Source of the DNA: Beijerinckiaceae bacterium
GTDB taxonomy: Bacteria; Pseudomonadota; Alphaproteobacteria; Rhizobiales; Beijerinckiaceae
Assembly (NCBI GenBank): GCA_947475995.1
Contig: CANJNI010000001.1
Location: 124,001-188,000 of the forward strand
Length of the DNA stretch: 64,000 nt
Direction of reading: 5' to 3'
The notes under the pieces were generated by a model. It was given only the letters and a program-made list of their open reading frames with translations, searched no databases and was not told the DNA's origin. Positions 23,326 through 45,097 of the stretch are shown piece after piece. Both the position numbers and the translations under genes were made by a program. The stretch's first letter is position 1, and each line of letters starts with the position of its first letter.

Positions 23326-23359
23326 GCACGACACTCGAAAAAAGCGGACTTCAAAACAT

Positions 23360-26885: not shown

Positions 26886-27058
26886 GGTCGACGCCCCTGG
26901 AATTGTTACCGGGCGTCTGCCCCGCATTCGCGGTTCGACGTGGTTCCCGGCCTTTCCGTTGAGGGCATCCTGCGCGGCGGGGCTTAACGCGATCCTTAAC
27001 GCAAACCGTCATTGAGCCGTATGCTTAAAATTCTATGGGAGCGGCGGTCCGGATGCGA

Positions 27059-28586: not shown

Positions 28587-29078
28587 TCAGAGGGTGCGAA
28601 ACATCACCAGCGCATCAACATAGCCGAGCGCGGGATGGCGGAACGCCTCCGGCAGCCTGCACATGGTTGCAAAACCGAGGCTTTCCCACAGGCGCACGGC
28701 GCGCACATTGCTGCTCACCACGCAATTGAACTGCATGGCTCGGAAACCGGCCCGCCGGGCGAATTCCATGGAATATTCGCACATGGCGCGGGCGATTCCC
28801 CTGCCGCTCGCATCCTGCGCGGTGATGTAGCCGCAGTTCGCCACATGGGCGCCCCCGCCCTGCTGGTTGGGCCGCAGATAGAATGTGCCGACGATGCGGC
28901 CATCAACTTCCGCCACAAAAGTCCGGTGGGTCGGCCCGCACCAGTAGGCCAGGGCCGCCTCGCGGCTCATGTCGGCCGGAAGCGCATAGGTCTCGCCTGC
29001 CCGGATGACGGATTCGAGAACGCGCCAGACGCTGTCGGCGTCCGGCGCATCGAAAGCACGGATGTTCAAACCATCCAT
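28587..29078 (-). CDS. GNAT-family N-acetyltransferase
   Basis: A 163-residue acetyl-CoA-dependent acetyltransferase. Family motifs: HRTFVAEVDGRIVGTFYLRP (strands 2-4), a diverged acetyl-CoA loop DASGRGIARAMCEYSMEFAR (Q/RxxGxG/A as QDASGRGIA) and NVRAVRLWESLGFATMCRLP at the C-terminus. Substrate unknown. The ATG overlaps the stop of the class II aldolase-family gene (TAATG), so both are probably co-transcribed. Confidence 0.88.
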   Translation of the reverse strand: MDGLNIRAFDAPDADSVWRVLESVIRAGETYALPADMSREAALAYWCGPTHRTFVAEVDGRIVGTFYLRPNQQGGGAHVANCGYITAQDASGRGIARAMCEYSMEFARRAGFRAMQFNCVVSSNVRAVRLWESLGFATMCRLPEAFRHPALGYVDALVMFRTL

Positions 29079-29845
29079 TACTTGTCGGTTTTCGAGAAGC
29101 CCGGGCCCATGTTCCAGTCCATCGGATAGTACGGACGACCCACCTCGCGGCACCAGTTCTCCCAGCCGCGCTCCAGCGTGAAACCGGCTCGCCCGCCCGC
29201 ATTGGCGGCGACTTCGCCATCCGACATCGGAACGATGTCGCCATCGCCCAACTGGTAGGCCTTCAGCAGCATCTCGGCGTTGATCTCCATATAGATGGAG
29301 GTGAACACGACTTCGCGAAGGGACTTGCCGACCACCACGCTGCCGTGGCCGCGCATGAGCGAAACCGTGCGCTTGCCGAGCGTTCCGGCAAGGTCGCGGC
29401 CCATGTCGATGGACGTCACCAGCAGGTTCGTCGTGCCGAACTTGTGCGAGATGTCCCAGGTCGGAATATCGGTCCCGATGGGGGCGCACATGTGCATGAT
29501 CGGCAACATCTTGCGACGGCTCTGCACCGTGAAGGGCACGACGTTGGGGCTGTGATTGTGCACCACCGCCATCACGTCCGGGCGGGCCTCGTAAACCGCG
29601 CCGTGGATGAAACGCTCCGAATAGGGCTTGCCGGGCTCGTGGCCGACGACAGCGCCCTCGTGGGTGAATTCGGTGATGTCGCCGATTTCAACGCAGGCCG
29701 GAGCGCGGGCGCGGGACAGCAGGAAGTGGTTGGGGTTTTCCGGGTGACGGATCGACACATGGCCGAAGGAATCGACCACATGGTGACGAGCCAGAATGTG
29801 GTTTGCGGTGACGAGATCGTCCTTGATCTGGCTGATATCCGGCAT
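29078..29845 (-). CDS. Class II aldolase/adducin-family protein
   Basis: A 255-residue protein of the fuculose-phosphate aldolase fold. Metal-ligand motifs are visible as VVHNHSPNVV (about residue 97) and MRGHGSVVVG (about residue 165). The start at 29845 (MPDISQIKDDLV) has an AGAGGA ribosome site. In aromatic pathways relatives act as decarboxylases of dihydroxy-aromatic acids or as retro-aldolases, so beside Rieske, LigB and LigJ-like genes it may act on a hydroxylated aromatic or a ring-cleavage product; this is inference from context. It is divergent from the alpha/beta hydrolase gene. Confidence 0.85.
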   Translation of the reverse strand: MPDISQIKDDLVTANHILARHHVVDSFGHVSIRHPENPNHFLLSRARAPACVEIGDITEFTHEGAVVGHEPGKPYSERFIHGAVYEARPDVMAVVHNHSPNVVPFTVQSRRKMLPIMHMCAPIGTDIPTWDISHKFGTTNLLVTSIDMGRDLAGTLGKRTVSLMRGHGSVVVGKSLREVVFTSIYMEINAEMLLKAYQLGDGDIVPMSDGEVAANAGGRAGFTLERGWENWCREVGRPYYPMDWNMGPGFSKTDK

Positions 29846-30002
29846 GCGGTTCCTCTCCGGGCGTTGTAATCGCGCTGGCGGCCTTCTAGCACATTTGCCG
29901 GCGGCGGCAGCCGGAAAAACATCGCTGCGGGAGAACGCCCCGCCAGCCCGGCATGACACCGGATCATGCGCCGTATAAACTTTCGCCCGACCGGGAGGAA
30001 CC

Positions 30003-30800
30003 ATGCCGACGATCACACGCAACGGCGTCAACATCCATTACGCCACCGACGGCGAGGGCCCTGCCCTGCTGATGCTGCATCCGCTGCCGTTCGACCATAC
30101 GCTCTACCGCTACCAGATCGCTCATTTCTCGACATGGTTCAAAGTGATCGCCGTGGACCTGCGGGGCTTCGGGCGCAGCGCATCGCCGCCGATGCGTTAT
30201 GGCCTCAACGACATTTGCGACGATGCGCTGGCGGTCGCGAAAGCCGAAGGCGTCGATCAGGCGATCGTGCTGGGCACCAGCATCGGCTCCAAGGCCGTGA
30301 TGCTGATGGGGCTCGACCATCCGGACTTCTGCCGCGCCGTCATTGCTGTCGGGGCAGGCAACAAGCCGTCCGCCCATCACCAGAGCCACATCGACGGCTA
30401 TATGGCGGGGCGCGAAAACTTCCACGCAAAGCATCTGCGCAGCGTGGTGAGCCCGGCTTTTGCAGATTCTCCGCTGGGTGCGCATCTGCTGGCGACGATG
30501 CTGGAGCGCGGGCGCGCGCTGGACATGAGCGGGGAAGGCATGGCGCGCACGGTGGCGGCCGCGCATGATCGCGATCTGCGGCCGCGCCTGCCGGGGCTGA
30601 AGCCGCCGCTGCTGGTGCTCAACGGGGAGTTCGACAATTCCCTTTCGGGCGGCACGGAAACCGTGTCGCTGGTTCCGGGCGCACGCCACCGGATCGTGAA
30701 GAATTGCGGACATGCCTGCTGCCTCGAAGATCCGCAAACCTTCGACGAGCATGTGATCGCGTTTCTGACCGACAAGGGATTGATGCCGGGCGCGCGCTGA
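30003..30800 (+). CDS. Alpha/beta hydrolase (enol-lactonase / meta-cleavage hydrolase type)
   Basis: A 265-residue cytoplasmic hydrolase beginning MPTITRNGVNIHYATDGEGP after a strong GGGAGG ribosome site. The nucleophile elbow is GTSIGSKAV, the acid lies in LNGEFDNS and the late His in KNCGHACCLEDP. Overall size and motifs match 3-oxoadipate enol-lactonase-like and C-C-bond hydrolases of aromatic breakdown, which fits the adjacent catabolic genes, but the substrate cannot be named. It converges on the ABC ATPase gene with only three bases between stops. Confidence 0.85.
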   Translation: MPTITRNGVNIHYATDGEGPALLMLHPLPFDHTLYRYQIAHFSTWFKVIAVDLRGFGRSASPPMRYGLNDICDDALAVAKAEGVDQAIVLGTSIGSKAVMLMGLDHPDFCRAVIAVGAGNKPSAHHQSHIDGYMAGRENFHAKHLRSVVSPAFADSPLGAHLLATMLERGRALDMSGEGMARTVAAAHDRDLRPRLPGLKPPLLVLNGEFDNSLSGGTETVSLVPGARHRIVKNCGHACCLEDPQTFDEHVIAFLTDKGLMPGAR

Positions 30801-30803
30801 GCT

Positions 30804-31904
30804 TCAGCGCGCCCAGACCGTTGCGGCGTTCTGCGGCAAATCGAGCGTGATCACATCGCCTTCGCGCAACGGCTTTCCGTTGACGGTGCGCGGCAACCAG
30901 GTCTCGACGCGCTGCCCGCCGCAATTCAGCACAGCCTCGTAGCGGTCGCCCGTAAACAGGAGCGCGTCGATCCTGGCCTCAAGCGCATTGTCGCTAGTGT
31001 CGAGGCGCACCTGCTCGGGCCTGATCGCCAGCAAGGCCTCGTCGCCCGGGGCAAGTCTGGCGTTGGCCTGAAGGCGTCCGCGCACCGTCCCGGCATTCGC
31101 CACACCGAGCGTCACGAAATCTCCCTCGGTGCTTTTCACGACGCCGCGTATCCGGGCGAAAGCGCCGATGAAATCACGCACGAAGGCCGTGCGCGGAGAA
31201 TCGTAAAGCTCGACCGGCGTTCCGATCTGTTCGATGCGGCCTGCATTCATCACCGCTATGCGATCCGACAGGGTGAGCGCCTCGACCTGATCATGCGTGA
31301 CCAGAATGACCCCGATATGCAGGCGTCGCTGCAACAGCTTCAGTTCGACGCGCATCTGCTCGCGCACGCGCAGGTCGAGATTGCTGAACGGCTCGTCGAG
31401 CAGCAGGATTTCAGGCTCGTACACGAGCGCGCGCGCCAGAGCGACGCGCTGCTGCTGGCCTCCGCTGAGGTTGGTGGAGGGCCGATCCTCGAATCCTTCA
31501 AGTCCGACCTGACGAATGGCGGCGCGCGCGCGTTCGGCCTTGTCGGCGGCGCTGACGCGGCGAATATCGAGCGGATAGGCGACCGTCTCCATCACGTTCA
31601 GATGCGGCCAGATGGCATAGGACTGGAACACCATGCCCATGTTGCGCTTTTGCGGCGGCACCAGGACATTGTCGACTGACGAAAAGATATCCTTGTCGCG
31701 CAGCCTGATCAGGCCTTCATCCGGCTCTTCGAGTCCGGCGATGATCCGCAAGGTCGTCGATTTGCCGCAGCCGCTCGGACCCAGCAGGGCAAAGACCTCG
31801 CCCTGCCGGATTTCGAGATCAATCGCGTCGACGGCGGCAAACGATCCATAGCGTTTGCTGACGCCGCGCAATTGCAGCAGCGGTTGCGCCGTCTTCAGGT
31901 CCAT
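30804..31904 (-). CDS. ABC importer ATP-binding protein (FbpC/PotA type)
   Basis: A 366-residue ATPase. Walker A GPSGCGKST (residues 42-50), signature LSGGQQQRVALARAL, Walker B ILLLDEPFSNLD and a His switch in VILVTHDQVEAL are all intact, followed by a C-terminal TOBE-type domain (from about residue 240). It is the only ATPase in the neighbourhood, while two fused permeases and two binding proteins are present, so it probably powers both. The ATG at 31904 overlaps the LigB stop by ten bases, which places it last in a permease-ligB-ATPase operon. Confidence 0.93.
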   Translation of the reverse strand: MDLKTAQPLLQLRGVSKRYGSFAAVDAIDLEIRQGEVFALLGPSGCGKSTTLRIIAGLEEPDEGLIRLRDKDIFSSVDNVLVPPQKRNMGMVFQSYAIWPHLNVMETVAYPLDIRRVSAADKAERARAAIRQVGLEGFEDRPSTNLSGGQQQRVALARALVYEPEILLLDEPFSNLDLRVREQMRVELKLLQRRLHIGVILVTHDQVEALTLSDRIAVMNAGRIEQIGTPVELYDSPRTAFVRDFIGAFARIRGVVKSTEGDFVTLGVANAGTVRGRLQANARLAPGDEALLAIRPEQVRLDTSDNALEARIDALLFTGDRYEAVLNCGGQRVETWLPRTVNGKPLREGDVITLDLPQNAATVWAR

Positions 31905-32794
31905 GAAGCAAAACCCATGGCGCAGCCGACGCCATCCGTGTTGCGATAGCACGGGATGTAATCCACATGCGGTACGCCCTGCGGCATGGCGCCGGCGAGG
32001 ATGATCCAGTTGCGGATCTCCGACGTGCCCTGAACCATTTTTTCGCCCGGGATGCTTTTCAGAAAAGCGGCGTCGCGCGTCTTCAGCGCATCAATGAAAG
32101 CATAATCGAAGGCCTCGTCGATCTTCGTATGCGTCAGCCCGCCGGAGGCCACAAGCACGACTCGCTCATCGCCCTTCATCGCCTCGACGCTGGCCCGGAC
32201 CGCTTCGCCGAGCATGAAGCAGCGGCGGGCGCCGGGCGCAGGCGGACAATAGGTGTTGACCATCAGTGGCACGATGGGCGTCTTCTTCTCGCCCGGCATG
32301 AGGAACTTCAGCGCGCGTCCGAAGGCGTGGCCGAGACCGCACGGATCGCGCGTTTCCTTCGACCAGGCGACGTCGAAATCGCGATCCCACAACTGGTCGA
32401 GCAAAGTCCTCGCCATGGGAGACACCGGATATTCGGTCATCTGGTCTTCCGCCTTGTCGCCAAGATACAGGAAGTGCTCGGTCGCGCTGACCTTCTCGCC
32501 CGTGAAGAGACAAAAGGGCGGCATGTTGTCGTCAAAGATGTTTTCATACTGGTCGTCGCCGAACACCATGACGACATCGGGCTTCAACTCTTCCAGCTTG
32601 CGGCGCAACCCGTCGATGTGCCGATGGCAGGCGTCGAAATTCCTCTTGAAGGCCGCTTCACCGACTTCCTTCTCGATTCCGGGCCTGGGATTGTACGGCG
32701 GCTTGGAGCGAACCGGCAGATCAGCCCATTTCTCTGCAGGCATCATCAGTTGCGGTCCGTGCGACATGGCGAGTGCGCCGACGATCTGTGCCAT
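31895..32794 (-). CDS. LigB-type class III extradiol ring-cleavage dioxygenase
   Basis: A 299-residue protein of the protocatechuate 4,5-dioxygenase beta-subunit superfamily, which opens catechol-type rings next to the hydroxyls with Fe(II). The N-terminal iron ligand region MAQIVGALAMSHGPQLMMPA has His12, and family blocks VVMVFGDDQYENIFDDNMPP, GLGHAFGRALKFL and VASGGLTHTK are present. No separate LigA-like small subunit is visible nearby, so it may work alone like gallate dioxygenase-type or homoprotocatechuate-type relatives. It sits between a permease gene and the ATPase gene on one transcript. It is the key sign that this island handles aromatic rings. Confidence 0.9.
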   Translation of the reverse strand: MAQIVGALAMSHGPQLMMPAEKWADLPVRSKPPYNPRPGIEKEVGEAAFKRNFDACHRHIDGLRRKLEELKPDVVMVFGDDQYENIFDDNMPPFCLFTGEKVSATEHFLYLGDKAEDQMTEYPVSPMARTLLDQLWDRDFDVAWSKETRDPCGLGHAFGRALKFLMPGEKKTPIVPLMVNTYCPPAPGARRCFMLGEAVRASVEAMKGDERVVLVASGGLTHTKIDEAFDYAFIDALKTRDAAFLKSIPGEKMVQGTSEIRNWIILAGAMPQGVPHVDYIPCYRNTDGVGCAMGFASWT

Positions 32795-32818
32795 TCGTTC
32801 CTCCTGCGCCGCAGCGCT

Positions 32819-34510
32819 CTAGTGGGTTCTGATTCCGAGACGCCGCGCCAGCAGGCGCGCCACCAAGACCATGCCGAGCGTCAGGCCGACAATGAGCACG
32901 CCGACAATGGCGGCAGGCTCGTAGCGGCCATCCACCATGTAATCGACCTGCAGCATGGCCAGCGGCCGATTGGACGCGGTGGCGAGCATCGCCACGCCGG
33001 CCACATTGCGGGCGGCGGTGTTGAACGTCAGCAGCGCAACCGTCAGCAGGACGGGGCCGAGCAGCGGCAGCAGGATGCGGCGGAACGTCGTCATCCAGCT
33101 TGCGCCGATGATCCAGGACGCTTCTTCCAGTTCGCGGCCGACCTGCACCATGTTGCTGCGAATGAGCTGCACGCCTGTCGAAAGCGCCGCTACCAGCACC
33201 GCGATGATGAGCACGCCGACGGAACCGTAAAGCTTGCCGAGCAGCGGCGTGGACAGGAAGGTCCACAACATTCCGAGCCCCAGAATGATGCCCGGCAACG
33301 TCGCCGGCAGCCAGGCCAGCAGGCCGAGCAGCATGCGTCCGGGCATGCGGGTGCGGTCCGCCACATAGGCGATGGAGGGAAACCACACGAGGCCGAGCGC
33401 GGCGGCCGCAAGCCCCATGACGATCGTGTTGCGCAAGGCGGTCAGCGTCTCCGCATCGGCGAAAACGTGCGACCAGTGCTCCGTTGTCCAGACGATTGCG
33501 AGGTCGAACTTGCCGAAAAGATTCATGAATGTGCCCATCACCAGACAGACAGTCGGCACAACGGTGATGACGAGGCATCCGGTGGCCAGCAGCGCGAAAA
33601 CCGGAACGCGCACGCGGCCGAGGCGCAGGACGCGGGGCTTGAAATGGCTCGTGAGGGTGGTGAAGTTTCGCGACGCCAGAATGCGTTGCTGCCAGATCAT
33701 CAGCGGCAGCATGCAGGCCAGCACCGCCAGCGCCAGCACCGTCGCAGCTCCGAAGAGGGGCGGCGATTGCTCGATCAAGCGGTAGATGCGTGTGGAGAAG
33801 ACATAGAAGTCGAAAGGCGCGCCGAGGATCAGCTCGATCTCGAAGGACTCCAGCGAGTGGACCAGCGAGATGATCGCCGTCACCATGATGGCCGGAACCA
33901 GAAGCGGCACCACGATACGCCACAGGGTGTGCAGCGTTCCATAGCCGGCGATGATGGAGGCTTCCTCCAGCGCGCCGTCGAAATTGCGGAAGGCGGGCAC
34001 GAGAAAGATGTATTTGGCTGCAATGGAGCGCGACGCCATGTGGGCGAAGACGATGCCCCAGAACGAATAGATGTTGAACAGCGGCTCTCCGGGACCGAAA
34101 AGCTTCGCGACAAGCTGGTTGGCGAGTCCGAAGTCCGGATCGAACAGCAGGATCCAGCCGAGCAGCACCGGCAAGGCAGGAAGGAAGAACGCCACCCAGA
34201 ACAGCGTGTCGAGCAGTTTCTTTCCCGGCATATCGGTGCGCGCCACCAGCCAGGCGATCAAGACCGCCGTCGGCAAAGCGATGATTTCCGTCAGCAGCGA
34301 GCGCCGCAACGTGTTGGCCAGCGCCGAAGCCATGCCGGGATTGTCGAAGGCTGCACGCCACGACGACAGGGTCAGGGCGCGCGCCTGCGAGGGATCGTCG
34401 CTGACGAAACTCCCGTAGGCGAGCAGAACCAGCGGATAGGCGACCAGCACCACCAATGTGAAAAGCAGGAACACCCCGCCCGCATGGCGAGGCCAGGCCA
34501 GCGCGCGCAT
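32819..34510 (-). CDS. ABC transporter permease, two fused FbpB-type domains (set 1)
   Basis: Inner membrane permease of about 563 residues with two tandem six-helix halves. Each half carries the ATPase-docking EAA loop: EEASIIAGYGTLHTLWRIVV and EEASWIIGASWMTTFRRILL. The architecture matches iron- and putative-aromatic importers of the FbpB class. The ATG at 34510 is proposed (MRALAWPRHAGGVF, preceded by GGTGAAG); a TTG start at 34546 (MTDHALSR) would add 12 residues. First gene of the minus-strand operon, divergent from the first Rieske gene. It ends in TAG. Confidence 0.9.
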   Translation of the reverse strand: MRALAWPRHAGGVFLLFTLVVLVAYPLVLLAYGSFVSDDPSQARALTLSSWRAAFDNPGMASALANTLRRSLLTEIIALPTAVLIAWLVARTDMPGKKLLDTLFWVAFFLPALPVLLGWILLFDPDFGLANQLVAKLFGPGEPLFNIYSFWGIVFAHMASRSIAAKYIFLVPAFRNFDGALEEASIIAGYGTLHTLWRIVVPLLVPAIMVTAIISLVHSLESFEIELILGAPFDFYVFSTRIYRLIEQSPPLFGAATVLALAVLACMLPLMIWQQRILASRNFTTLTSHFKPRVLRLGRVRVPVFALLATGCLVITVVPTVCLVMGTFMNLFGKFDLAIVWTTEHWSHVFADAETLTALRNTIVMGLAAAALGLVWFPSIAYVADRTRMPGRMLLGLLAWLPATLPGIILGLGMLWTFLSTPLLGKLYGSVGVLIIAVLVAALSTGVQLIRSNMVQVGRELEEASWIIGASWMTTFRRILLPLLGPVLLTVALLTFNTAARNVAGVAMLATASNRPLAMLQVDYMVDGRYEPAAIVGVLIVGLTLGMVLVARLLARRLGIRTH

Positions 34511-34525
34511 CTTCACCGGCGAGCG

Positions 34526-34705
34526 TGACAGTGCGTGGTCTGTCAAGACGCGATCGCCGATTTACGGATATACGGAAATGACGGAACCCCTGCGGGCTTC
34601 CGGTTCCGGCGCATCTGGCATTTCCTCCCGCTGTTTGCGCGACTGACAAATTGACAGTTGCGCCGCCTATTCCGTACATTTGTGATGCGAAGCGCCGGAC
34701 TGTCA
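34526..34705. promoter_or_regulatory. Divergent promoter region with repeated TGACAG/CTGTCA sites
   Basis: Between the permease gene (minus) and the first Rieske gene (plus). TGACAG at 34526-34531 faces CTGTCA at 34540-34545 (eight-base spacer); ACTGACAAATTGACAGT at 34642-34658 is a near-palindrome containing TGACAG; CTGTCA recurs at 34700-34705. Four copies of one hexamer in about 180 bases is well above chance and suggests operators for a shared regulator of both operons. Confidence 0.5.
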
Positions 34706-34732
34706 ATGAGTGCTCGCAAGGAGAAACGCCTG

Positions 34733-36019
34733 ATGGTCTCGCGTGCAGAGAACGAATTGCTGACGCGCACCGGCCCCGGATCGCCGGGCGGTGATATGAT
34801 GCGCCGCTACTGGCATCCGGTCGCGCTGTCCGAGGAGCTTCCGCCAGGCGGCGCGCCGCGTCCGATCCGCATCCTCAGCGAAGACCTCGTACTGTTCCGC
34901 GACGATCAGGGCCGCCTGGGACTGGTCGAAAAACTGTGTCCGCATCGTTGCGCCGACCTCAGCTTCGGACGCATCGAGGACGGCGGCTTGCGCTGCCTAT
35001 ATCACGGCTGGCTGTTCGACATTAACGGGCGTTGTCTTGACCAGCCGGCGGAGCCGCCGGACAGCAAGTACAAGGACGAAGTTCGCCACACGGCCTACAA
35101 GTGCATCGAGCGCGCCGGAATGATCTTCGCCTATCTGGGCAAGGACCCCGCGCCCGTGTTTCCGGAATATGAATTCCTCGGCGCCGCAGAGGAAAACCGC
35201 TTTCTGGTCCGCACCTCTCTCGAATGCAACTGGCTGCAGGCGCTCGAAGGCAATATCGACCCTTCGCATCTGTCCTATCTGCACAAGCCCATGGCGCCGG
35301 TGGACAGCCGCGCGGTGCCGGGCAGCGACAAATCCGCAGACGCCTATTATCGCGAGGACACACGCCCGAAGCTGGAAATCGAACGCACGAATTTCGGCGT
35401 GCGCAATTATTCGATCCGCAACGCGGGCGACAAGGGCAAATACCTGCGCATCACCAATTTCATCATGCCCAACAAGGCCGCCATCGTGGGCAACGAGGGA
35501 CGCGTCGGGCAAGGCTATTCGCTGCACTGGCACGTGCCGATTGACGATGAAAACAACATGCGCTTCGATTTCATCTTCAACCGCGCCCGCCCCATCGACC
35601 GTTCGCGCTACAACAAGCACCACGAAACGGAACGCACGCCCGACGGTCGCCATGTCCGCAACCGCGCCAACCGCTATCTGCAGGATCGCGAGTTGATGAA
35701 GACCTCGAATTACACCGGCATGGGCGATTACTTCCCGGTGCATGACGCCTATGCGACGGAATCCATGGGCCCCATCGTCGACCGCACGAAGGAGCATCTT
35801 GGCTCGACGGACATCTGCATCGTGGCGGCGCGGCGGGCGCTGCTCAACGCCATTGCGGCGGTCGAGCAGGGCAACGATCCGATCCATGTCATCCGCCGGC
35901 CGGAAGACAATGATTGCTCGAACATCGTCGTGGTGTCGGAGGTGATCGCCAACGAAGTCGATCACAAGGAATTCTGGAAGCAGCGCGTCCACAAGCAGAA
36001 GATGGCGGTTCCGGCGTAA
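34733..36019 (+). CDS. Rieske non-heme iron oxygenase, large subunit (paralogue 1)
   Basis: A 428-residue aromatic ring-hydroxylating or O-demethylating oxygenase of the phthalate 4,5-dioxygenase class. The Rieske [2Fe-2S] ligands are Cys69, His71, Cys88 and His91 (CPHR ... CLYHGW). The mononuclear iron site is GNIDPSHLSYLH with His179 and His184, and bridging Asp176. The start is fixed by AAGGAG nine bases before ATG 34733 and by the matching N-terminus of its paralogue (TRTGPGSPGGDMMRRYW). No ferredoxin reductase lies nearby. First gene of the six-gene plus-strand operon. Substrate unknown. Confidence 0.93.
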   Translation: MVSRAENELLTRTGPGSPGGDMMRRYWHPVALSEELPPGGAPRPIRILSEDLVLFRDDQGRLGLVEKLCPHRCADLSFGRIEDGGLRCLYHGWLFDINGRCLDQPAEPPDSKYKDEVRHTAYKCIERAGMIFAYLGKDPAPVFPEYEFLGAAEENRFLVRTSLECNWLQALEGNIDPSHLSYLHKPMAPVDSRAVPGSDKSADAYYREDTRPKLEIERTNFGVRNYSIRNAGDKGKYLRITNFIMPNKAAIVGNEGRVGQGYSLHWHVPIDDENNMRFDFIFNRARPIDRSRYNKHHETERTPDGRHVRNRANRYLQDRELMKTSNYTGMGDYFPVHDAYATESMGPIVDRTKEHLGSTDICIVAARRALLNAIAAVEQGNDPIHVIRRPEDNDCSNIVVVSEVIANEVDHKEFWKQRVHKQKMAVPA

Positions 36020-36058
36020 GGCGGCGCGGACCCTGGGTCCGCTCGAAGGGAGAGCACA

Positions 36059-37162: not shown

Positions 37163-37189
37163 TGGCGCTGCATCCGGGCTGCATGGCGA

Positions 37190-38917: not shown

Positions 38918-38931
38918 TTCCGGAGGATTCC

Positions 38932-40209
38932 ATGACGACACGCGAAGAGAACGATCTTCTGACCCGCACCGGCCCCGGAACGCCGGGGGGAGACATGATG
39001 CGCCGCTACTGGCAGCCTGTCGGGTTGAGCGCAGAGCTGAAGGATGCGCCTGTGCCGGTGAAGATTCTCGGCGAGGATCTGGTGCTTTTCCGCGGTGAGG
39101 ACGGAATTCCCGGCCTCATGGGCCTGCAGTGCCCGCATCGCTGCGCAGACCTGAGCTACGGGCGCATCGAGGATGGCGGATTGCGCTGCCTCTATCATGG
39201 ATGGCTTTTTGACCGTCACGGCAATTGTCTCGATCAACCGGCCGAGCCGCCGGAGAGCAAGTACAAGGACGAGATCAAGCACACGGCCTATCCGTGCCAT
39301 GAAACAGGCGGGGTGATCCTGACCTATATGGGCCCGGGCGAAGCGCCGCTCGTGCCGAACTATCATTTCCTGCACGCGCCGGAGAAGAACGTCTTCACCA
39401 CCAAGGTCTATCACGACTGCAATCAGTTGCAGGCCAACGAAGGCAATTTCGATCCTGCGCATCTGTCATTCCTGCATGCGCTCAATCCCGGCCGCGATGG
39501 ACGCACGGGCGTCAACCTCACCATGCAGGAAGTGATGGGCAAGCAGACGCGCCCGAAGATCGACACGGAACGTACGCGCTTCGGCCTGCGTATCTATGCC
39601 CAGCGCGATGCGGGCGAGGGCAAGAAGTATCTGCGCTGCACGAATTTCGTCCTGCCCAATATCGGATTTTTCGCAGGCGACGGCGGCCGCTCCGGGCCGA
39701 CCAGCTATTCGGTGCACTGGCACGTCCCGATCGACGACGAGAGCCACTGGCGCTACGACTTCTATTACGACGCCAAGGACGGCATCGACCACGAACGGCT
39801 GAACCTCAAGGTCAATACCGAAATGGGACCGGACTATCGTCCGACCCGCAAGCGCGAAAACAGGTATCTGCAGAATCGTGCGGAGCTCGACGCAACTTTT
39901 GCTGGCATGGGGGTCTACTTTCCATCGCACGATCTTTTCGCGGTCGAGACGCCCGGTCGCATCCACGACCGCACGCGCGAACATCTGGGCGCGAGCGATG
40001 TAGCAATCGTTCAGGCGCGACGCATGATGCTGAACGCCATCAAGGATGTGCAGGGCGGCAAGGAGCCGCCGGGTGTGATCCGCAGCCAGAATGAAAACGT
40101 GTTCAACGACCTGATCATCCTGTCGGTGATGATCGACAAGGATCAGGACCCGAAGCAATACACGAACAACATCGCGCAGACGCAGGACTATCACGCACTG
40201 AAAGCCTGA
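38932..40209 (+). CDS. Rieske non-heme iron oxygenase, large subunit (paralogue 2)
   Basis: A 425-residue oxygenase, strongly similar to the one at 34733. Rieske ligands are Cys67, His69, Cys86 and His89; the mononuclear site reads GNFDPAHLSFLH. The ATG at 38932 follows CGGAGG closely. Compared with paralogue 1 the Rieske half is nearly identical (CADLSYGRIEDGGLRCLYHG), whereas the substrate-pocket half differs more, suggesting duplication followed by substrate change, or two sequential hydroxylations. No reductase partner is encoded in the window. Confidence 0.93.
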   Translation: MTTREENDLLTRTGPGTPGGDMMRRYWQPVGLSAELKDAPVPVKILGEDLVLFRGEDGIPGLMGLQCPHRCADLSYGRIEDGGLRCLYHGWLFDRHGNCLDQPAEPPESKYKDEIKHTAYPCHETGGVILTYMGPGEAPLVPNYHFLHAPEKNVFTTKVYHDCNQLQANEGNFDPAHLSFLHALNPGRDGRTGVNLTMQEVMGKQTRPKIDTERTRFGLRIYAQRDAGEGKKYLRCTNFVLPNIGFFAGDGGRSGPTSYSVHWHVPIDDESHWRYDFYYDAKDGIDHERLNLKVNTEMGPDYRPTRKRENRYLQNRAELDATFAGMGVYFPSHDLFAVETPGRIHDRTREHLGASDVAIVQARRMMLNAIKDVQGGKEPPGVIRSQNENVFNDLIILSVMIDKDQDPKQYTNNIAQTQDYHALKA

Positions 40210-40229
40210 ACCGCAACCGGGAGAGAGCC

Positions 40230-41333
40230 ATGAACGCTATGCAGAGAACATCCGCCCTGTTGGGCGCGGTCGCGGCGCTTTCGCTGTCCCTTGCGGGCGC
40301 GGCGCTGGCGGCGGGCTGGGACGACGGCGGCGGCGAGGCCTGGCAGAAGGTGCTGGAAGCCGCAAAGAAGGAAGGGCCGGTGGTGGTGCTCGGGCGCCCC
40401 GACCTCGGCAAGCCTTTTGCTGAAGGCTTCAAGCGCGACACAGGCCTCAGCATGGAATATCTGGGCGGACAGACCCGCGAGTTGCAATCGCGCTTCCGTC
40501 GCGAAGTGGCGTCCGGCAACGTACTCAGCGACGCCATTCTGGGCGGCGAGACCGCCGTCGACATGATCGCCCCGGACTATCTGATGTCGCTTGCCGACAA
40601 GATCATGTTGCCGGGCGTCAAGGACGGCAAGAACTGGATCAACGGCCACATGCAGTGGGGCGACAACAAGCAGACCTATCTGTTTATCGGCGGTGAATAT
40701 GTTCACGGCTGGCCGGTGCTCAACACCAACCTGATCAAGCCCGGCGAAGTGCGCGTCTGGGAAGATATGCTGAAGCCCCAGTTCAAGGGGAAGATCGTGG
40801 CGTTCGATCCGCGCGAGGGCGCGGGCGGCGCGGCGGCGGCCTATATCATCGAGACGAAGGGCATCGAGTTCTACAAGAAGCTCTACAAGGATCAGGAGAT
40901 GGTGCTGGCGCGCGACGGGCGTCAGGTCGTCGAGTGGCTGGCGCGCGGTTCGCATTCGATAGCGCTGGGCGCAGTGCCGCCGGATGTGGAATATTTCCGT
41001 AACGCGGGCATGAAGCAGCTTGTCGTCACCCCGATGGAGGACGGCCCCGGCACCTTGCTGGGCGGCAGCGCAGTGCTGACGATCGCCAAGAAAGCCCCGC
41101 ACCCGAACGCCGCAACCGTGTTCCTGAACTGGTACGCCAGCAAGCCCGGCCAGGAAGCATTCAGCGCCACATGGCGCACGCCCTCCAACCGCACCGACGT
41201 GGTCGTGGCGAGCGTGCCGGACTATGTGAAGCCCGTCGCAGGCAAGAAATATCTCGAACAATATCGCGAGGACTGGTGGATGCAGCGCCGGACCGTGATC
41301 GAAAAGCAGCTTGAAGAACTTCTCGGCAAGTAA
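40230..41333 (+). CDS. ABC transporter periplasmic binding protein, FbpA/AfuA type (set 2)
   Basis: A 367-residue binding protein, same length as the first set but diverged, with signal peptide MNAMQRTSALLGAVAALSLS ending ALAAG. A strong ribosome site (GGGAGAGA) precedes the ATG at 40230. The mature protein opens AWQKVLEAAKKEGPVVVLGR and ends with the family block HPNAATVFLNWYASKPGQEA. It follows the second Rieske gene by 20 bases and is followed by a stable hairpin. Ligand unknown; the aromatic-catabolism context suggests an aromatic acid. Confidence 0.9.
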   Translation: MNAMQRTSALLGAVAALSLSLAGAALAAGWDDGGGEAWQKVLEAAKKEGPVVVLGRPDLGKPFAEGFKRDTGLSMEYLGGQTRELQSRFRREVASGNVLSDAILGGETAVDMIAPDYLMSLADKIMLPGVKDGKNWINGHMQWGDNKQTYLFIGGEYVHGWPVLNTNLIKPGEVRVWEDMLKPQFKGKIVAFDPREGAGGAAAAYIIETKGIEFYKKLYKDQEMVLARDGRQVVEWLARGSHSIALGAVPPDVEYFRNAGMKQLVVTPMEDGPGTLLGGSAVLTIAKKAPHPNAATVFLNWYASKPGQEAFSATWRTPSNRTDVVVASVPDYVKPVAGKKYLEQYREDWWMQRRTVIEKQLEELLGK

Positions 41334-41339
41334 GCGGCT

Positions 41340-41368
41340 GAGGGTGCGCCAGCAAATGGCGCGCCCTC
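41340..41368 (+). other. Intercistronic hairpin between binding-protein and LigJ-like genes
   Basis: GAGGGTGCGCCA (41340-41351) and TGGCGCGCCCTC (41357-41368) can form a 12-pair stem with one G-U pair and a five-base loop. No T run follows, so it is more likely an mRNA-stabilising or attenuating element that lets the binding protein be made in excess than a full terminator. Confidence 0.6.
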
Positions 41369-41395
41369 GCTTCAAAATCAAACAGGAAGAAACGC

Positions 41396-42493
41396 ATGTA
41401 TCTGGGCAAGAAAGTCATTTGCACGCACGGTCATATTTCGACGCCTGTGCATTTTCGCGGATATGCGGCAAACCTCATCGCGCTGCGCAATCCGGGCGGC
41501 GACGATCTGAAGATTCCCGAAGGCCCCATGCGTGAAGCCATGAACCGGCATTTGCAAATGCTGGACGAACGCGACATCGACGTCCAGCTCATCTCGCCGC
41601 GTCCGGTGGCGATGTTGCACTGGGAGCGGCCGTTCATTCAGGAGAAATGGGCGCGCACCACCAACGATACGATCGCCGAACAGTGCCGCATGGAGAAGCG
41701 CTTCGTGGGCGTCGCGCAGCTTCCGCAAGCGCCCGGGCTGAACATCCGCAAGTGCGTTTCGGAGCTTGAATATGCGATCAAGGACCTCGGCTTCGTGGGC
41801 GCCACCCTGAACCCCGATCCTGCGGGTGACCGCCAGTCGCCGGGACTGGACGATGAAGCCTGGTTCCCGATCTACGAGGCTGCGCAGGATCTCGACGCCA
41901 CGCTCATCGTTCATCCGTCCGTGTCGAAAGACCCGCGCATCGAGCGGCTGCCGCATTCCTACCAGTACAACAACCTCACGGAAGAAACGCTGGCGACGCT
42001 GCTGCTCGAACAGGGCTCGGTGTTCGAGCGCTTCCCGAAACTGCGGATCGTGATCTGTCATTGCGGCGGCGCGCTGCGCCGGCTGCAAGCGAATGGGGAC
42101 GCCTATGACGCATGTCTGCCGAAAGACGCTCCGGGCAACAAGATCGGATCAAGCGGACAGGAGTCCGGCGGCCAGGTCGGTACGGGCCGCGTGCGCCGCG
42201 CCAAGAAGCCGAAGCCGGACCTGAGGAACAATCTGTTCTTCGACACCTGCGCTTACGATCCGTGGTTTCTGGGAGCCGCGATCCATCAGCGTGGTCCGGC
42301 CCAGATGGTCTTCGGCAGCGAAGTTCCCGGCTCGGGATCAGCGATGCAAAATCCCTTCACGGGACGACCGTCGGACGATGTGGTCGCGACGATCAACAAG
42401 TTCGACTTCCTCACCGAACAGCAACGGGTCGACATTTATCACAACAACCCCCGCAAGGTTTTCCCGCTGATGGAGAAGCTGGGGCTGTTCTAG
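41396..42493 (+). CDS. Amidohydrolase-superfamily protein resembling LigJ (4-oxalomesaconate hydratase)
   Basis: A 365-residue TIM-barrel metal-dependent enzyme. Metal-site pattern starts CTHGHIS (His11, His13) and continues with TLIVHPSVS and VICHCGGAL. Segments LGFVGATLNPDPAG, NNLFFDTCAYDP, MVFGSEVPGSG and HNNPRKVFPLMEKL match the layout I recall for LigJ-type hydratases of the protocatechuate 4,5-cleavage pathway, so hydration of a ring-cleavage product is plausible; decarboxylases of the same superfamily are the alternative. A Gly/Ser/Lys-rich insertion (about residues 239-273) precedes NNLFFDTC. Last gene of the plus-strand operon, ends in TAG before a strong terminator. Confidence 0.8.
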   Translation: MYLGKKVICTHGHISTPVHFRGYAANLIALRNPGGDDLKIPEGPMREAMNRHLQMLDERDIDVQLISPRPVAMLHWERPFIQEKWARTTNDTIAEQCRMEKRFVGVAQLPQAPGLNIRKCVSELEYAIKDLGFVGATLNPDPAGDRQSPGLDDEAWFPIYEAAQDLDATLIVHPSVSKDPRIERLPHSYQYNNLTEETLATLLLEQGSVFERFPKLRIVICHCGGALRRLQANGDAYDACLPKDAPGNKIGSSGQESGGQVGTGRVRRAKKPKPDLRNNLFFDTCAYDPWFLGAAIHQRGPAQMVFGSEVPGSGSAMQNPFTGRPSDDVVATINKFDFLTEQQRVDIYHNNPRKVFPLMEKLGLF

Positions 42494-42507
42494 TCGCCAT
42501 GCCGTGC

Positions 42508-42543
42508 GTCCCCTCCGGTTCATCGCGCCCGAACGGAGGGGAC
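42508..42543. terminator. Bidirectional terminator-like hairpin
   Basis: Ten-base perfect stem GTCCCCTCCG / CGGAGGGGAC (42508-42517 and 42534-42543) extended by TTC/GAA. It lies exactly between the convergent LigJ-like and flavin monooxygenase genes. It lacks a long T run, so termination may be partial or Rho-assisted. Confidence 0.65.
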
Positions 42544-42551
42544 GACGCGCC

Positions 42552-44165
42552 TCAATGGCCGGTCGCGATCGCGTCGACTTCCGCCGCATCGTCCGGGGCC
42601 GCATTGCCGCGCCAGACGATGTGCATGTCGGGCCGCAGCAAAAGCAGGTCGTAACCGTAGAGGTCGCGGGCGATCTGATCAGGAATATCCAGCACCGTCA
42701 CCGGCGCCCCATAGCCCGCAATGGCCTTTTGCAAATGGCTTGTGTCGATCTTCGTACCGCCGAGACGGATGATCGTGTAGCCGAAGGCCGGCAGATGATC
42801 CTGCACGGCGGACCCGTCGTTGAGCCAGACATGCGGCAGACGTGCGCCGGGCCACGTGGTCGGCTCGTAGGTGCGGAACAGATGTTCAGGGCCGCCCGGC
42901 ACATCGCAGATGATGGGCGAGGCCACATAACGATAGCCGAGTTCCGCCCCGACCATCTCGTTCGTCTTTCGCTGCTCGACATCCGCGACGGCGGCGAGAA
43001 TTTCGCGCGACTGCTTTCCTTCCGGCGTGCGGTCGTTGATGTTGGGCTGCCACATGGAACGCCACTTGCGGCGGCCGAGCGTCGCATAGCGTGATGCGCC
43101 GACGTTGCGGTCGCCAATCTGGCGACGTTCGAATTCGTAGGACGGCAGCAGGTTCGGGCCGCCCCATCCCTTCAGCACGGCTTCGAGTTTCCACGCCAGA
43201 TCAATCGCGTCGCCCGCGCCGGAATTCATCCCGAGGCCGCCGGTCGGTATCACGAGATGCACGGCGTCGCCCGCGAGGAACACGCGGTCCTTCTGGTATT
43301 TCTCCGCCACCAGCAGGTTTTGCCGCCACGGATTGCAGGACAGCATTTCGTATTTCACCGGCACGCCGACGGTCTTTTCAAACTGGCGCTTCATGGCTTC
43401 GTCGCTGTCGACGACGGAGTGAAGCGTCCAGTGCTTCGTCGAATCCTGCATGATCAGGAAGGTCGATTTGTCGTCGGCCACATGATAGTGGCGCCCGCGT
43501 CCGGGGCCGTTGCCCATCGGCAACTTGTCGGCGAGTTCCTCGCAATAATAGAGCGCCTGCCGCAGGCCCAGCGAATTGGCCTCGCCGTGCAGGCGAATGC
43601 CGAGCGCGTGACGCACCGGGCTCGCGCCGCCATCGCAGCCGACCACATAGGCCGAGCGCAGAACGCTTTCGGAGCCATCGGGATTTCGGATGCGCGTCGA
43701 GACTCCCTGCTCGTCCTGTTCAAGCGACAGGAATTGCGTGCTCCAGCGCATCGTGATGGCGGGAATCCTTTCGCATTCTTCCTTCAGCAGCGGCTCGAGC
43801 GTGTATTGCGAGATCAACTGATAGGGTTCGAGCGGGACGGAGCCATCGGTGGTGTTGCGAATGTCGAATTCGGCCTCGGCGACGGACGGATAGGGCAAGC
43901 GAAGCAGCGGCGGCTTCGTCATGTCCTCGATGACATAGACATCCATCGGCCAGTTGCGGTCGAGACCCGCGGCGCGAACCTTCTTCGAGATGCCGAGACG
44001 ACGGTAGATTTCCATCGTGCGGGCGTTGATGCGCTCCATCTTCGGCAGGAAGGCCGGCTTCTCCTTCTGCTCGATGACCATCGTCCGGATGCCGCGACGG
44101 CCAAGGTCCAGCGCCAGCGTCATCCCGCCCGGCCCTGCGCCGACGATCAAAACCTGCGTATCCAT
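42552..44165 (-). CDS. FAD-dependent aromatic monooxygenase (PheA/TfdB/MhpA family)
   Basis: A 537-residue flavoprotein hydroxylase. The N-terminus MDTQVLIVGAGPGGMTLALD has the GxGxxG dinucleotide fold, the central part the FAD/NAD motif YVVGCDGGASPVRHALGI, and RVFLAGDAVHLVIPTGGLGM the ribityl-binding GD motif; a thioredoxin-like C-terminal domain with VLDIPDQIARDLYGYDLLLL is typical of the phenol-hydroxylase branch. It would hydroxylate a phenolic ring with NAD(P)H and oxygen, possibly to prepare it for LigB cleavage. ATG 44165 has GGAGG six bases upstream. It lies downstream of the iclR-type gene on the same strand. Confidence 0.9.
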   Translation of the reverse strand: MDTQVLIVGAGPGGMTLALDLGRRGIRTMVIEQKEKPAFLPKMERINARTMEIYRRLGISKKVRAAGLDRNWPMDVYVIEDMTKPPLLRLPYPSVAEAEFDIRNTTDGSVPLEPYQLISQYTLEPLLKEECERIPAITMRWSTQFLSLEQDEQGVSTRIRNPDGSESVLRSAYVVGCDGGASPVRHALGIRLHGEANSLGLRQALYYCEELADKLPMGNGPGRGRHYHVADDKSTFLIMQDSTKHWTLHSVVDSDEAMKRQFEKTVGVPVKYEMLSCNPWRQNLLVAEKYQKDRVFLAGDAVHLVIPTGGLGMNSGAGDAIDLAWKLEAVLKGWGGPNLLPSYEFERRQIGDRNVGASRYATLGRRKWRSMWQPNINDRTPEGKQSREILAAVADVEQRKTNEMVGAELGYRYVASPIICDVPGGPEHLFRTYEPTTWPGARLPHVWLNDGSAVQDHLPAFGYTIIRLGGTKIDTSHLQKAIAGYGAPVTVLDIPDQIARDLYGYDLLLLRPDMHIVWRGNAAPDDAAEVDAIATGH

Positions 44166-44222
44166 CCGTTTCCTCCACATGTGGCGTGGGGAAATCATCG
44201 GCCATTCGACCCGGGCGGTCAA

Positions 44223-44236
44223 TTGAAATATATCAA
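44223..44236. promoter_or_regulatory. Near-palindrome TTGA-N6-TCAA upstream of the monooxygenase gene
   Basis: TTGAAATATATCAA, 58 bases upstream of the monooxygenase start and inside an AT-rich patch. The same TTGA-N6-TCAA form occurs just upstream of the IclR-type regulator gene (45084-45097), making it a candidate operator for that regulator. Confidence 0.45.
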
Positions 44237-44265
44237 AATCCCAAATTATGCGAATTATCGACTAT

Positions 44266-45081
44266 CTATGGTTGGCCGAAATCCCGATCTTCCGCCCCGT
44301 TCATCTCGGGCGAATTGTCGCGTGCGATCGCTTTGGTCACGATGGCTGCGCCGAACACGACCCGGTCCGCAATGGTCCGCAGACGGTCCTGCGCCAATTG
44401 CGCCTGGCCGACTGTGATGCTCAGGCTCCCCAGAACAGAGCCGCGACGGTCGAACACCGGCGCCGCAATGCCGGTGACGCCGGGCGTCACATCTGCAGCG
44501 GTGGAATCCCAACCCTGCTGGCGAATGTCGCGCAGGATGGCCCGGGCCGTGTCGAGCGATGCGCCGTAGCCAGCCGCCTCGAAATCAGCAGCCTGGGCGG
44601 CGTGAAGCTTGCGGATCGCCGCCAGCGGCATGTTCGCCAGAATGATCCGGGAGGCCGCGCCGCGCAGCAGCGGCCGCGACTTGCCGCGCTCGTAATTGCT
44701 CTGGAATGTCTGCGTATTCTGCTCCTGATGAACACACAGCACGCGGTCCCGGTAGCGCCGGCACAGCAGCGCGATTCCCGGCACAGTCTCGACCAGTTGC
44801 GCCATGACCGGGCGGGCGGCGACGATCATCGGATCGCGCTGGCGCATCTGGTAATCCAGTTCGGCGATGCGCGGCCCGAGCGTGTAGCCGATGTCCGGCA
44901 GGGACGTCAGCAGGCCCGCATCGGTCAGGACTTTCAGATAGCGATAGAGGGTGGAACGCGTGAGTCCGAGACGGGCGTGCAAATCCTCGATGGCCCATTC
45001 CATGCGCGACCCGTCGAACAGGTCCAGAATGTTGATCATGCGTTCGAGGCTGGTCATGGGCGCATCCTTGATCTCAGCCAT
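44266..45081 (-). CDS. IclR-family transcriptional regulator
   Basis: A 271-residue regulator with an N-terminal winged helix-turn-helix (about residues 10-72: TSLERMINILDLFDGSRMEW, RLGLTRSTLYRYLKVLTDAG) and a C-terminal IclR effector domain (AAPVFDRRGSVLGSLSITVG). ATG 45081 is preferred to the TTG at 45090. IclR proteins commonly control aromatic and acetate catabolism with a pathway acid as inducer, which fits the neighbouring genes. It ends in TAG about 100 bases before the flavin monooxygenase start. A TTGA-N6-TCAA sequence sits immediately upstream, hinting at autoregulation. Confidence 0.92.
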   Translation of the reverse strand: MAEIKDAPMTSLERMINILDLFDGSRMEWAIEDLHARLGLTRSTLYRYLKVLTDAGLLTSLPDIGYTLGPRIAELDYQMRQRDPMIVAARPVMAQLVETVPGIALLCRRYRDRVLCVHQEQNTQTFQSNYERGKSRPLLRGAASRIILANMPLAAIRKLHAAQAADFEAAGYGASLDTARAILRDIRQQGWDSTAADVTPGVTGIAAPVFDRRGSVLGSLSITVGQAQLAQDRLRTIADRVVFGAAIVTKAIARDNSPEMNGAEDRDFGQP

Positions 45082-45083
45082 AT

Positions 45084-45097
45084 TTGACAAAGATCAA
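45084..45097. promoter_or_regulatory. TTGA-N6-TCAA site upstream of the iclR-type gene
   Basis: TTGACAAAGATCAA, three bases upstream of the proposed start codon. It has the same half-sites and spacing as the sequence at 44223-44236. Location is suited to repression by occlusion. Confidence 0.4.

Follow-up and report, generated by a model that had tools for sequence, protein, structure and literature searches.

A recurrent gene module for putative aromatic-acid catabolism, with its own binding-protein ABC importer, in an alphaproteobacterial genome

Introduction

Inland-water bacteria process much terrestrial aromatic carbon, and Rieske-rich genomes have already been reported from the sea; for modules that lead from import to ring opening, good characterization is largely limited to cultured strains, Sphingobium SYK-6 among them. 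In Sphingobium sp. SYK-6, the genes ligXa, ligZ and ligY are part of a single 5,5'-dehydrodivanillate (DDVA) cluster, together with ddvK, ddvR and ddvT, as outlined in a report on this organism (PMC6874591). Here we analyze a 64,000-nucleotide stretch of DNA, hereafter the window (positions 124,001 to 188,000 of contig CANJNI010000001.1, assembly GCA_947475995.1), which belongs to the 4.14-Mb draft genome, in 73 contigs, of a Beijerinckiaceae bacterium, an uncultured alphaproteobacterium that is probably from freshwater. An island of 13 genes in this window resembles the DDVA cluster in that it combines a Rieske oxygenase with a LigXa_C domain, a protein of the extradiol dioxygenase family, an amidohydrolase of the LigY/LigJ group, a transporter and a regulator. 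We consider it somewhat probable that the island is an inducible aromatic-acid catabolic module with a build similar to the LigX-LigZ-LigY part of the DDVA route, equipped with an ATP-binding cassette (ABC) importer that relies on binding proteins.

Results

Gene content and recurrence of the island

The island spans positions 29078-45090 of the window, and each of its genes shows a significant match to a Pfam or NCBIfam family (Table 1). An initial annotation, made from the sequence without database searches, had placed a probable island for the catabolism of aromatic acids, including a dedicated ABC importer, at 29078-45081. These limits were correct to within 9 bases, all the gene types that it named are present according to significant Pfam and NCBIfam matches, and the proposal itself is supported by the family matches and by the recurrence described below. 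The genes for permease 1, the LigB-family dioxygenase and the ATPase are read leftward, and those for Rieske oxygenase (RO) 1, substrate-binding protein (SBP) 1, permease 2, RO2, SBP2 and the amidohydrolase are read rightward, from a promoter region that the two sets have in common. The ends of the island are formed by the aldolase, the alpha/beta hydrolase, the FAD-dependent hydroxylase and the IclR-family regulator.

The grouping of these genes exceeds chance, given that a conserved gene set and a conserved promoter repeat are found in relatives. In a congener (G035), the same gene set is present (66-91% identity), and the four genes that flank it are also the same: CysQ and a GNAT protein on one side and a TIGR03862 flavoprotein and GshA on the other. 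The set is split over contigs C90 and C5. Each of the two breaks off within ligB, and we assumed that they are neighbors; if they adjoin, the block from the ATPase to the amidohydrolase is inverted relative to the window. Additional DNA lies beside the aldolase in this genome. In another member of the genus (G005), the core is located on a short contig and harbors an additional SBP-Rieske-Rieske-permease unit between permease 2 and SBP1. This unit (L034, 3546-8808, contig C115) consists of a binding protein, two Rieske oxygenases and a fused permease inside the orthologous set, and the adjacent permease 2 was matched as two overlapping pieces. Judging from this case, the Rieske-SBP-permease units look as if they were modular.

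A LigB protein with at least 60% identity was detected in 3 of 37 genomes, comprising 36 relatives from the genus plus the window's own; several of these genomes are incomplete. The island is therefore regarded as accessory. There was no junction between CysQ and the flavoprotein in 19 GshA neighborhoods of relatives (16 from the genus and 3 from the order), so that no clean insertion site could be delineated; the MatE-GshA side was often syntenic in these neighborhoods.

Outside the genus, the wider LigB alignment was matched (E ≤1e-40) in 9 of the 385 sampled alphaproteobacterial genomes, the window's own included, and LigB of the window type (E ≤1e-60) was found only in the own genome among 398 sampled genomes of the phylum. 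In the family f138, LigB of this type (E ≤1e-70) is encoded in 9 of 11 genomes, at 12 places, with 44-62% identity. Because related gene sets thus occur in a second alphaproteobacterial family, confinement of the island to the genus was rejected, and the earlier impression of a private oddity was not borne out.

We tabulated 16 neighborhoods of the LigB clade, namely, the 12 places in f138 along with L056, L057 and the loci of G005 and G035. These loci are partly dependent (the ligB genes of L094 and L114 are separated by 7.8 kb in G173, and two loci each come from G442 and G449), and many of the neighborhoods are interrupted by contig ends. Rieske oxygenases were found around 15 of the 16, permeases around 11, amidohydrolases and aldolases around 10 each, and binding proteins and ATPases around 8 each. 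The 19 GshA-centered control loci, drawn from the window's genus and order rather than from f138, had a Rieske oxygenase at one locus, an ATPase at two and none of the other seven gene types. At L095, L109 and L111, the Rieske oxygenase, amidohydrolase, binding protein, permease, ATPase and aldolase are all located within 10 kb of LigB. An RraA aldolase and a RidA-family protein join the set at L095, and two RraA proteins are present at L094.

A conserved repeat in the divergent promoter region

The region between the divergent gene sets contains an inverted repeat, TTGACAGT-N40-ACTGTCAA, which is a candidate operator. When searched as a pattern with exact arms and a spacer of 28-45, chosen after the alignment had been seen, this is the only match in the 4.14-Mb genome; the control pattern read backward yielded none, and neither did 100 shuffles of the window. 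In G035 and G005, the repeat occupies the same place, 56 bp long and with both arms exact, amid DNA much of which has diverged. The left arm contains TTGACA, followed by TACATT 18 bases downstream (as read by eye), and because it thus holds a possible −35 element, the conservation could partly reflect the promoter. Three additional half-sites, with one mismatch each, are present in or beside the intergenic region, at 34525, 34539 and 34642. The best NCBIfam models for the IclR protein are BhcR and PcaR/PcaU/PobR, with scores below the cut-off.

A dioxygenase with glutamine in place of an iron-ligand histidine

The dioxygenase belongs to the LigB fold of class III extradiol dioxygenases, according to both PF02900 and its AlphaFold2 (AF2) model. 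By sequence, the nearest entries in the Protein Data Bank (PDB) are MhpB, LigAB and DesB, all of them weak (1.1e-16 to 4.3e-8), and the top folds for the model (mean predicted local distance difference test, pLDDT, 88.2) are LigAB, MhpB and DesB (best E 5.7e-18, 9.8e-18 and 1.1e-16, respectively). The active-site residues are His13, Asp81, Gln82, His156, His222 and Glu259. The iron site of LigB is numbered His12, His59/61 and Glu239/242. The iron ligands of DesB are reported as His12, Asn57, His59 and Glu239 (PMC3962378). The window protein retains His13, His156, His222 and Glu259, but Gln82 aligns with the second iron-ligand histidine of MhpB and DesB, so that the canonical 2-His-1-carboxylate site is altered, with His13 and Glu259 present and glutamine replacing the second histidine.

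In a FastTree tree of 31 proteins, midpoint-rooted and read without branch support values, the window dioxygenase falls into a group of 23 that does not include canonical LigB or gallate dioxygenase. Glutamine occupies the iron-ligand position in 21 of these 23 proteins and histidine in the other 2; all 8 proteins outside the group carry histidine. Hence, the claim of a LigB-type dioxygenase holds for family and fold, but the protein comes from a separate, glutamine-bearing group (the DQ group) and differs from the canonical beta chain of LigAB. Glutamine was found in all 37 rows of best-match relatives, duplicate gene copies included, and in all 21 of a further set. The generalization that every LigB relative has glutamine was nevertheless rejected, given two histidine members of the wider set (from G085 and from contig C20 of G442). 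The latter (L101, 9112-10074) lacks the usual Gly-His-Ala motif, and a EutA-family protein and cupins are encoded within a few kilobases of it.

In Polymorphobacter, a DQ-type LigB directly adjoins an amidohydrolase that is 70.5% identical to the printed part of SYK-6 LigY, and therefore the DQ group may include enzymes of the LigZ type. If LigZ itself carries glutamine, the substitution of glutamine for histidine is compatible with activity.

The amidohydrolase and the Rieske oxygenases

The best solved match of the amidohydrolase is LigY (5vn5, 6.1e-49, 170 bits), followed by LigJ (6dwv, 2e-40, 142 bits). Its motifs QLISPRP and GSEVPGSG (GSExPGxG) are of the LigY type (QLISPRP and GSECPGVG in LigY) and are not those of LigJ (TIFSPRA and GSEMVGAV). 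A firm assignment to LigY on the basis of these motifs and scores was, however, abandoned because the phylogenetic tree favors the LigJ side (see Discussion).

Both Rieske oxygenases have phthalate dioxygenase (7fjl) as their closest PDB entry (4.6e-77 for RO1 and 5.1e-64 for RO2), and in both, the Rieske C-x-H...C-x2-H motif and the D-x2-H-x4-H iron motif are intact, as seen in the sequences and the alignment. RO1 probably starts at ATG 34733, since the homology to phthalate dioxygenase begins there and AAGGAG is located upstream. In phthalate dioxygenase, R207 and R244 are reported to hold the carboxylates (PMC12445078). RO1 retains both arginines. The R207 position is Arg or Lys in all five of the examined proteins of the RO1 group, with Lys in the f138 relatives at L095 and L102. 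In RO2, R244 is kept, and the R207 position is Glu in the HMMER alignment or Gly with an adjacent Lys in the MAFFT alignment. Taken as sequence features, the arginines of RO1 point to carboxylated substrates.

The genome as a whole shows an expanded repertoire, with 45 Rieske-domain matches and 53 SBP_bac_8 matches in 4.14 Mb. A search with two reductase families yielded 2 FAD_binding_6 matches and 1 Reductase_C match; with three such matches for 34 large Rieske open reading frames (ORFs), reductases are probably shared. These 34 are the ORFs of at least 330 amino acids among the 44 entered (10 smaller ones were dropped, a FAD-Rieske fusion on contig C42 was included, and one weak second match in a 143-amino-acid ORF had been omitted from the 45). 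An SBP_bac_8 gene lies within 2.5 kb of 7 of the 34, compared to 2.0 expected, and 71 of 20,000 placements reached 7; the support for a Rieske-SBP linkage is modest because two of the seven belong to the island itself. For SAR202, the literature already documents expanded sets of ring-hydroxylating and demethylating oxygenases (PMC6123686, PMC6946804), and an enrichment of aromatic degradation genes has been described for Arctic Alphaproteobacteria (PMC9789639), so that richness in Rieske genes is by itself no novelty.

Elsewhere in the genome, contig C19 (45917-47128; L038, 9843-10973) encodes a Rieske oxygenase with a LigXa_C score of 518 bits that keeps R207 and R244, matches the active-site motifs of phthalate dioxygenase almost letter for letter and is adjoined by a reductase-domain match; this protein is probably a canonical phthalate dioxygenase. 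The fusion on contig C42 (L046, 4865-6487) joins an FAD-dependent oxidoreductase (DAO) to a Rieske domain.

The importer and the remaining enzymes

The importer is made up of a single ATPase together with a pair of fused double permeases and a pair of binding proteins. The ATPase ORF overlaps ligB by 58 bases, and its real start may lie downstream; its best NCBIfam match, TIGR03265 (2.4e-102), and those of the permeases, TIGR03262 (1.3e-42 and 2.1e-41 for permeases 1 and 2), are below the cut-offs. The top folds for the AF2 model of SBP1 (pLDDT 86.8) are the metal-citrate-binding protein MctA, and the nearest solved relatives of SBP1 and SBP2 by sequence are 7f6 entries (7f6u for SBP2) described as MctA, with iron-binding and sugar-phosphate-binding proteins ranking behind. 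Membership in the AfuA/MctA type is thus supported for SBP1 by fold and for both proteins by sequence. The Tyr-Tyr dyad, the iron-binding signature of the FbpABC binding protein, is absent from the sequences of SBP1 and SBP2. Because the nearest solved relatives bind metal-citrate and the dyad is missing, iron is an unlikely ligand; the description of the binding proteins as FbpA-type is upheld with respect to the fold but not to a likeness to iron binders, the MctA chains being nearer. Among described aromatic-binding proteins, those of R. palustris include the branched-chain type COG0683 (PMC3223731), and PatDABC is discussed for phthalate (PMC10973024).

The class II aldolase, the start of which is uncertain (29845, which is likely, or upstream), has Mlr6791 as its closest PDB match (9.9e-48); its best NCBIfam model is 3,4-dihydroxyphthalate decarboxylase, with 65.5 bits against a cut-off of 200. 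It is probably an aromatic-acid decarboxylase or aldolase. Mlr6791 is the HMPDC decarboxylase of vitamin B6 breakdown. Such breakdown was dropped as a function of the island because it is at odds with the presence of Rieske, LigB and LigY/LigJ-group genes. The alpha/beta hydrolase matches TIGR02427 (8e-29), below the cut-off.

Table 1. Coordinates and family matches of the features of the island (positions in the window).
Feature	Coordinates	Strand	Evidence
Class II aldolase/adducin family enzyme (Aldolase_II)	29078..30034	-	PF00596 2.3e-27
Alpha/beta hydrolase, PcaD-like	30003..30800	+	PF00561 9.7e-17
ABC importer ATPase, PhnT2/PotA-like	30804..31952	-	PF00005 2.3e-36, with TOBE_2
LigB-family class III dioxygenase, DQ group	31895..32794	-	PF02900 1.2e-21
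Fused ABC permease 1	32819..34546	-	PF00528 2e-15, two BPD_transp_1 stretches
Inverted repeat TTGACAGT-N40-ACTGTCAA, candidate operator	34651..34706	.	divergent promoter region
Rieske oxygenase RO1	34733..36019 (ORF from 34658)	+	PF00355 3.1e-19, LigXa_C 6.7e-41
Periplasmic binding protein SBP1 (SBP_bac_8)	36059..37162	+	PF13416 9.8e-10
Fused ABC permease 2	37190..38917	+	PF00528 7.8e-21, two stretches
Rieske oxygenase RO2	about 38932..40209	+	LigXa_C 2.6e-32, Rieske 1.6e-18 (on longer ORF from 38131)
Periplasmic binding protein SBP2 (SBP_bac_8)	40230..41333	+	PF13416 7.5e-15
Amidohydro_2 enzyme, LigY/LigJ group	41396..42493	+	PF04909 1.3e-33
FAD-dependent aromatic hydroxylase, PRK06126 subfamily	42552..44222	-	NF004780 1.7e-148 (above cut-off), PF01494 1.5e-72
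IclR-family regulator	44266..45090	-	PF01614 3.3e-17, PF09339 3.2e-11

Further observations concern the surroundings. Upstream of the island, at 20368-26927 of the window, there are cellulose synthesis genes (BcsB, a glycosyltransferase/cellulose synthase and BcsS). A second island of the same flavor in this genome (L050, contig C6, 1-18000) encodes a DQ-type LigB, an SBP_bac_8 protein, a VOC protein, a Rieske oxygenase, a class V aminotransferase, GntR, a fused permease, a CoA-transferase, MmgE/PrpD, an enolase-type enzyme and IclR, with an IS240-type transposase nearby. Contig C12 (464-4575) carries four consecutive SBP_bac_8 genes.

Discussion

The results translate into a working model of the island. 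Under this model, SBP1 and SBP2 would bind anionic aromatic acids on the periplasmic side and hand them over to the two fused permeases, both driven by the one shared ATPase. RO1 and RO2 would O-demethylate or hydroxylate the ring to form a catechol, drawing electrons from a reductase encoded elsewhere, after which the DQ-type LigB-family enzyme would open the ring and the amidohydrolase would split (as LigY) or hydrate (as LigJ) the product of ring fission. The class II aldolase might act by decarboxylation or aldol cleavage, on a side chain or at a lower step; the alpha/beta hydrolase could hydrolyze a lactone or an ester, and the FAD hydroxylase could introduce a further hydroxyl group. The inverted repeat, or the half-sites, between the divergent operons would be the target of a regulator, for which the neighboring IclR protein is the simplest candidate. 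What the sequence data show is the genes present, a core set that recurs, retained catalytic motifs and a conserved repeat that looks like an operator; the order of the reactions, the step that forms the catechol and the pairing of the regulator with its sites are what we infer. The module is real and recurrent, and in the types of enzyme that it contains it resembles the DDVA route; identity with the DDVA pathway is not claimed. A tentative extension of the model, less likely than not, would make the island the type case of an uncharacterized modular pathway: it supposes that each binding protein, of the FbpA/MctA fold, pairs with its own Rieske oxygenase and shares the single ATPase, so that different humic- or lignin-derived acids are funneled to the His-Gln-Glu dioxygenase, and that relatives gain or lose Rieske-SBP-permease units, as in G005, when the substrate mix changes.

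Several observations weigh against the aromatic-acid module as proposed. The alpha/beta hydrolase, the flavin hydroxylase and the IclR protein each recur, at the threshold used, at only 1 of the 16 LigB loci, that of the congener G035, and their membership is therefore weaker; Pfam also detects an IclR protein at L056. No ABC genes are present in the available stretches around LigB at L106, L107, L108, L056 and L057, the permease is the sole ABC gene at L094/L114, and L112 has no binding protein. Therefore, linkage of the transporter is not universal, although contig ends cut many of these stretches. At the threshold used, L056 and L057 contain only Rieske genes, and L112 contains no Rieske gene. 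Within the island itself, there is no cis-diol dehydrogenase, no RraA aldolase and no reductase, including any for the Rieske oxygenases. A search of four intergenic regions between divergent genes in f138 did not recover the arm TTGACAGT, even with one mismatch allowed, so that the repeat is established only in the window's genus. Furthermore, glutamine at the iron-ligand position could mean that ring-cleavage activity is altered or lost.

The amidohydrolase adds to these difficulties. It is 36.2% identical to LigY and 34.7% identical to LigJ (6dwv), and with identities so low and nearly equal, it is an orthologue of neither. In a FastTree tree of 16 sequences, the deep split with the best support (0.969) places it on the LigJ side, away from LigY, in the company of the G035 orthologue, an Agrobacterium vitis protein, the L095 and L102 enzymes and a Rhodococcus protein, all on long branches. 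It lies outside the LigJ clade proper (support 1.000), whose members are 6dwv and three proteins that share 61-65% identity with it. The amidohydrolases of G173 and of contig C20 of G442 are on the LigY side (51.6% and 49.4% identical to LigY), and those of f138 at L095 and L102 are about 32% identical to LigY. The designation "LigJ-like hydratase" in the initial annotation is accordingly apt for the LigY/LigJ group and the side of the tree, but not for LigJ orthology or motifs. With motifs and tree at variance, the data do not decide on the chemistry, and the hydration step proposed there is retained as one of two options, next to C-C hydrolysis.

These uncertainties bear directly on an alternative, in line with the 4,5-type ring opening and hydration suggested by the initial annotation, in which the island encodes a pathway of the protocatechuate/gallate 4,5-cleavage type, with demethylation of a methoxybenzoate by a Rieske oxygenase, ring opening by LigB, hydration of the LigJ type and aldol cleavage. 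In the 4,5-pathway, the RraA aldolase step comes after hydration, and RraA aldolases are encoded beside the same gene set at L095 and L094 as well as beside DQ-type LigB on plasmids of Bradyrhizobium, Aminobacter and Polymorphobacter; moreover, the amidohydrolase group contains LigJ (2e-40), and the window protein is assigned to the LigJ side by the split with 0.969 support. We nevertheless find this pathway somewhat unlikely, considering the LigY-type motifs of the amidohydrolase and its position outside the LigJ clade, the separation of the dioxygenase from canonical LigB and gallate dioxygenase in its tree, and the lack of RraA, LigC and LigI in the island. A benzene- or pyridine-polycarboxylate substrate, with RO1 hydroxylating a phthalate-like ring and the aldolase removing a carboxyl group from an ortho-hydroxy dicarboxylate either prior to ring opening or afterward, would be a more specific version of the aromatic-acid module and is compatible with it. 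The two phthalate-dioxygenase arginines of RO1, the best matches of the aldolase (3,4-dihydroxyphthalate decarboxylase and Mlr6791) and the citrate ligands of the nearest binding-protein structures all agree with such a substrate, but its assignment appears doubtful as the island contains no dihydrodiol dehydrogenase, a more canonical phthalate-dioxygenase-like protein is encoded elsewhere, near a reductase (contig C19), and the aldolase score is far below the NCBIfam cut-off (65.5 versus 200 bits).

Finally, the ABC genes might belong to an unrelated iron or phosphonate importer that is merely located among catabolic genes, an explanation to which we attach very little credence. The best NCBIfam models for several of the ABC proteins are indeed 2-aminoethylphosphonate systems, and the fold of the binding proteins is FbpA-like. 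However, among the matches listed, the NCBIfam scores of all five proteins are below the cut-offs, and there is no Tyr-Tyr dyad. The ABC genes are also interleaved with the Rieske and LigB genes around a common divergent promoter, show the same linkage in a second family, and are represented, together with two additional Rieske genes, in the extra unit inside the G005 set.

We therefore return to the aromatic-acid module with its dedicated importer as the preferred reading. Its recurrence in a second family looks like the signature of a real, undescribed pathway for plant- or humus-derived carbon. A narrow phrase search of the open-licence literature retrieved no named pathway with this gene set, in agreement with the initial annotation, and no work on a class III enzyme with a glutamine ligand; nor was a binding-protein type like SBP1 and SBP2 found described for aromatics in the open-licence literature searched. 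The recurrent gene set and the candidate operator provide specific proteins for testing. If the model is correct, an aromatic function would be assigned to part of a very large family of binding proteins whose members are mostly labeled iron or phosphonate transporters in annotations; the analysis also flags a dioxygenase group in which the iron site departs from the textbook His-His-Glu triad.

Compared to the described systems, the island combines features of several. In place of the carrier of the major facilitator superfamily (MFS), DdvK, and the MarR regulator of the SYK-6 DDVA cluster, it has an ABC importer with binding proteins and an IclR regulator, and it contains two Rieske oxygenases as well as an extra aldolase, hydrolase and flavin hydroxylase; LigY, the one component compared for orthology, has no orthologue here (36.2% identity, as opposed to 70.5% for the Polymorphobacter protein). 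With the 4,5-cleavage pathway of protocatechuate and gallate (LigAB or DesB, and LigJ), it shares the class III dioxygenase fold and the amidohydrolase group that includes LigJ, but not LigA, LigC, LigI or RraA, and it differs in the glutamine of the dioxygenase and in the absence of LigJ motifs from the amidohydrolase. Among solved structures, phthalate 4,5-dioxygenase and isophthalate dioxygenase (7fjl and 9ina) rank in the top three for RO1 and RO2, although in the island no reductase or dihydrodiol dehydrogenase is adjacent, and the R207 position of RO2 is not Arg. The importer is similar to those of the FbpA/AfuA/MctA type in the fold of its binding proteins, the SBP_bac_8 domain, the fused double permease and the PotA/PhnT2-like ATPase; unlike them, it lacks the Tyr-Tyr dyad and is embedded in an aromatic catabolic module. 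Against this background, the defined module, the type of importer and the glutamine-bearing group of dioxygenases appear to be new.

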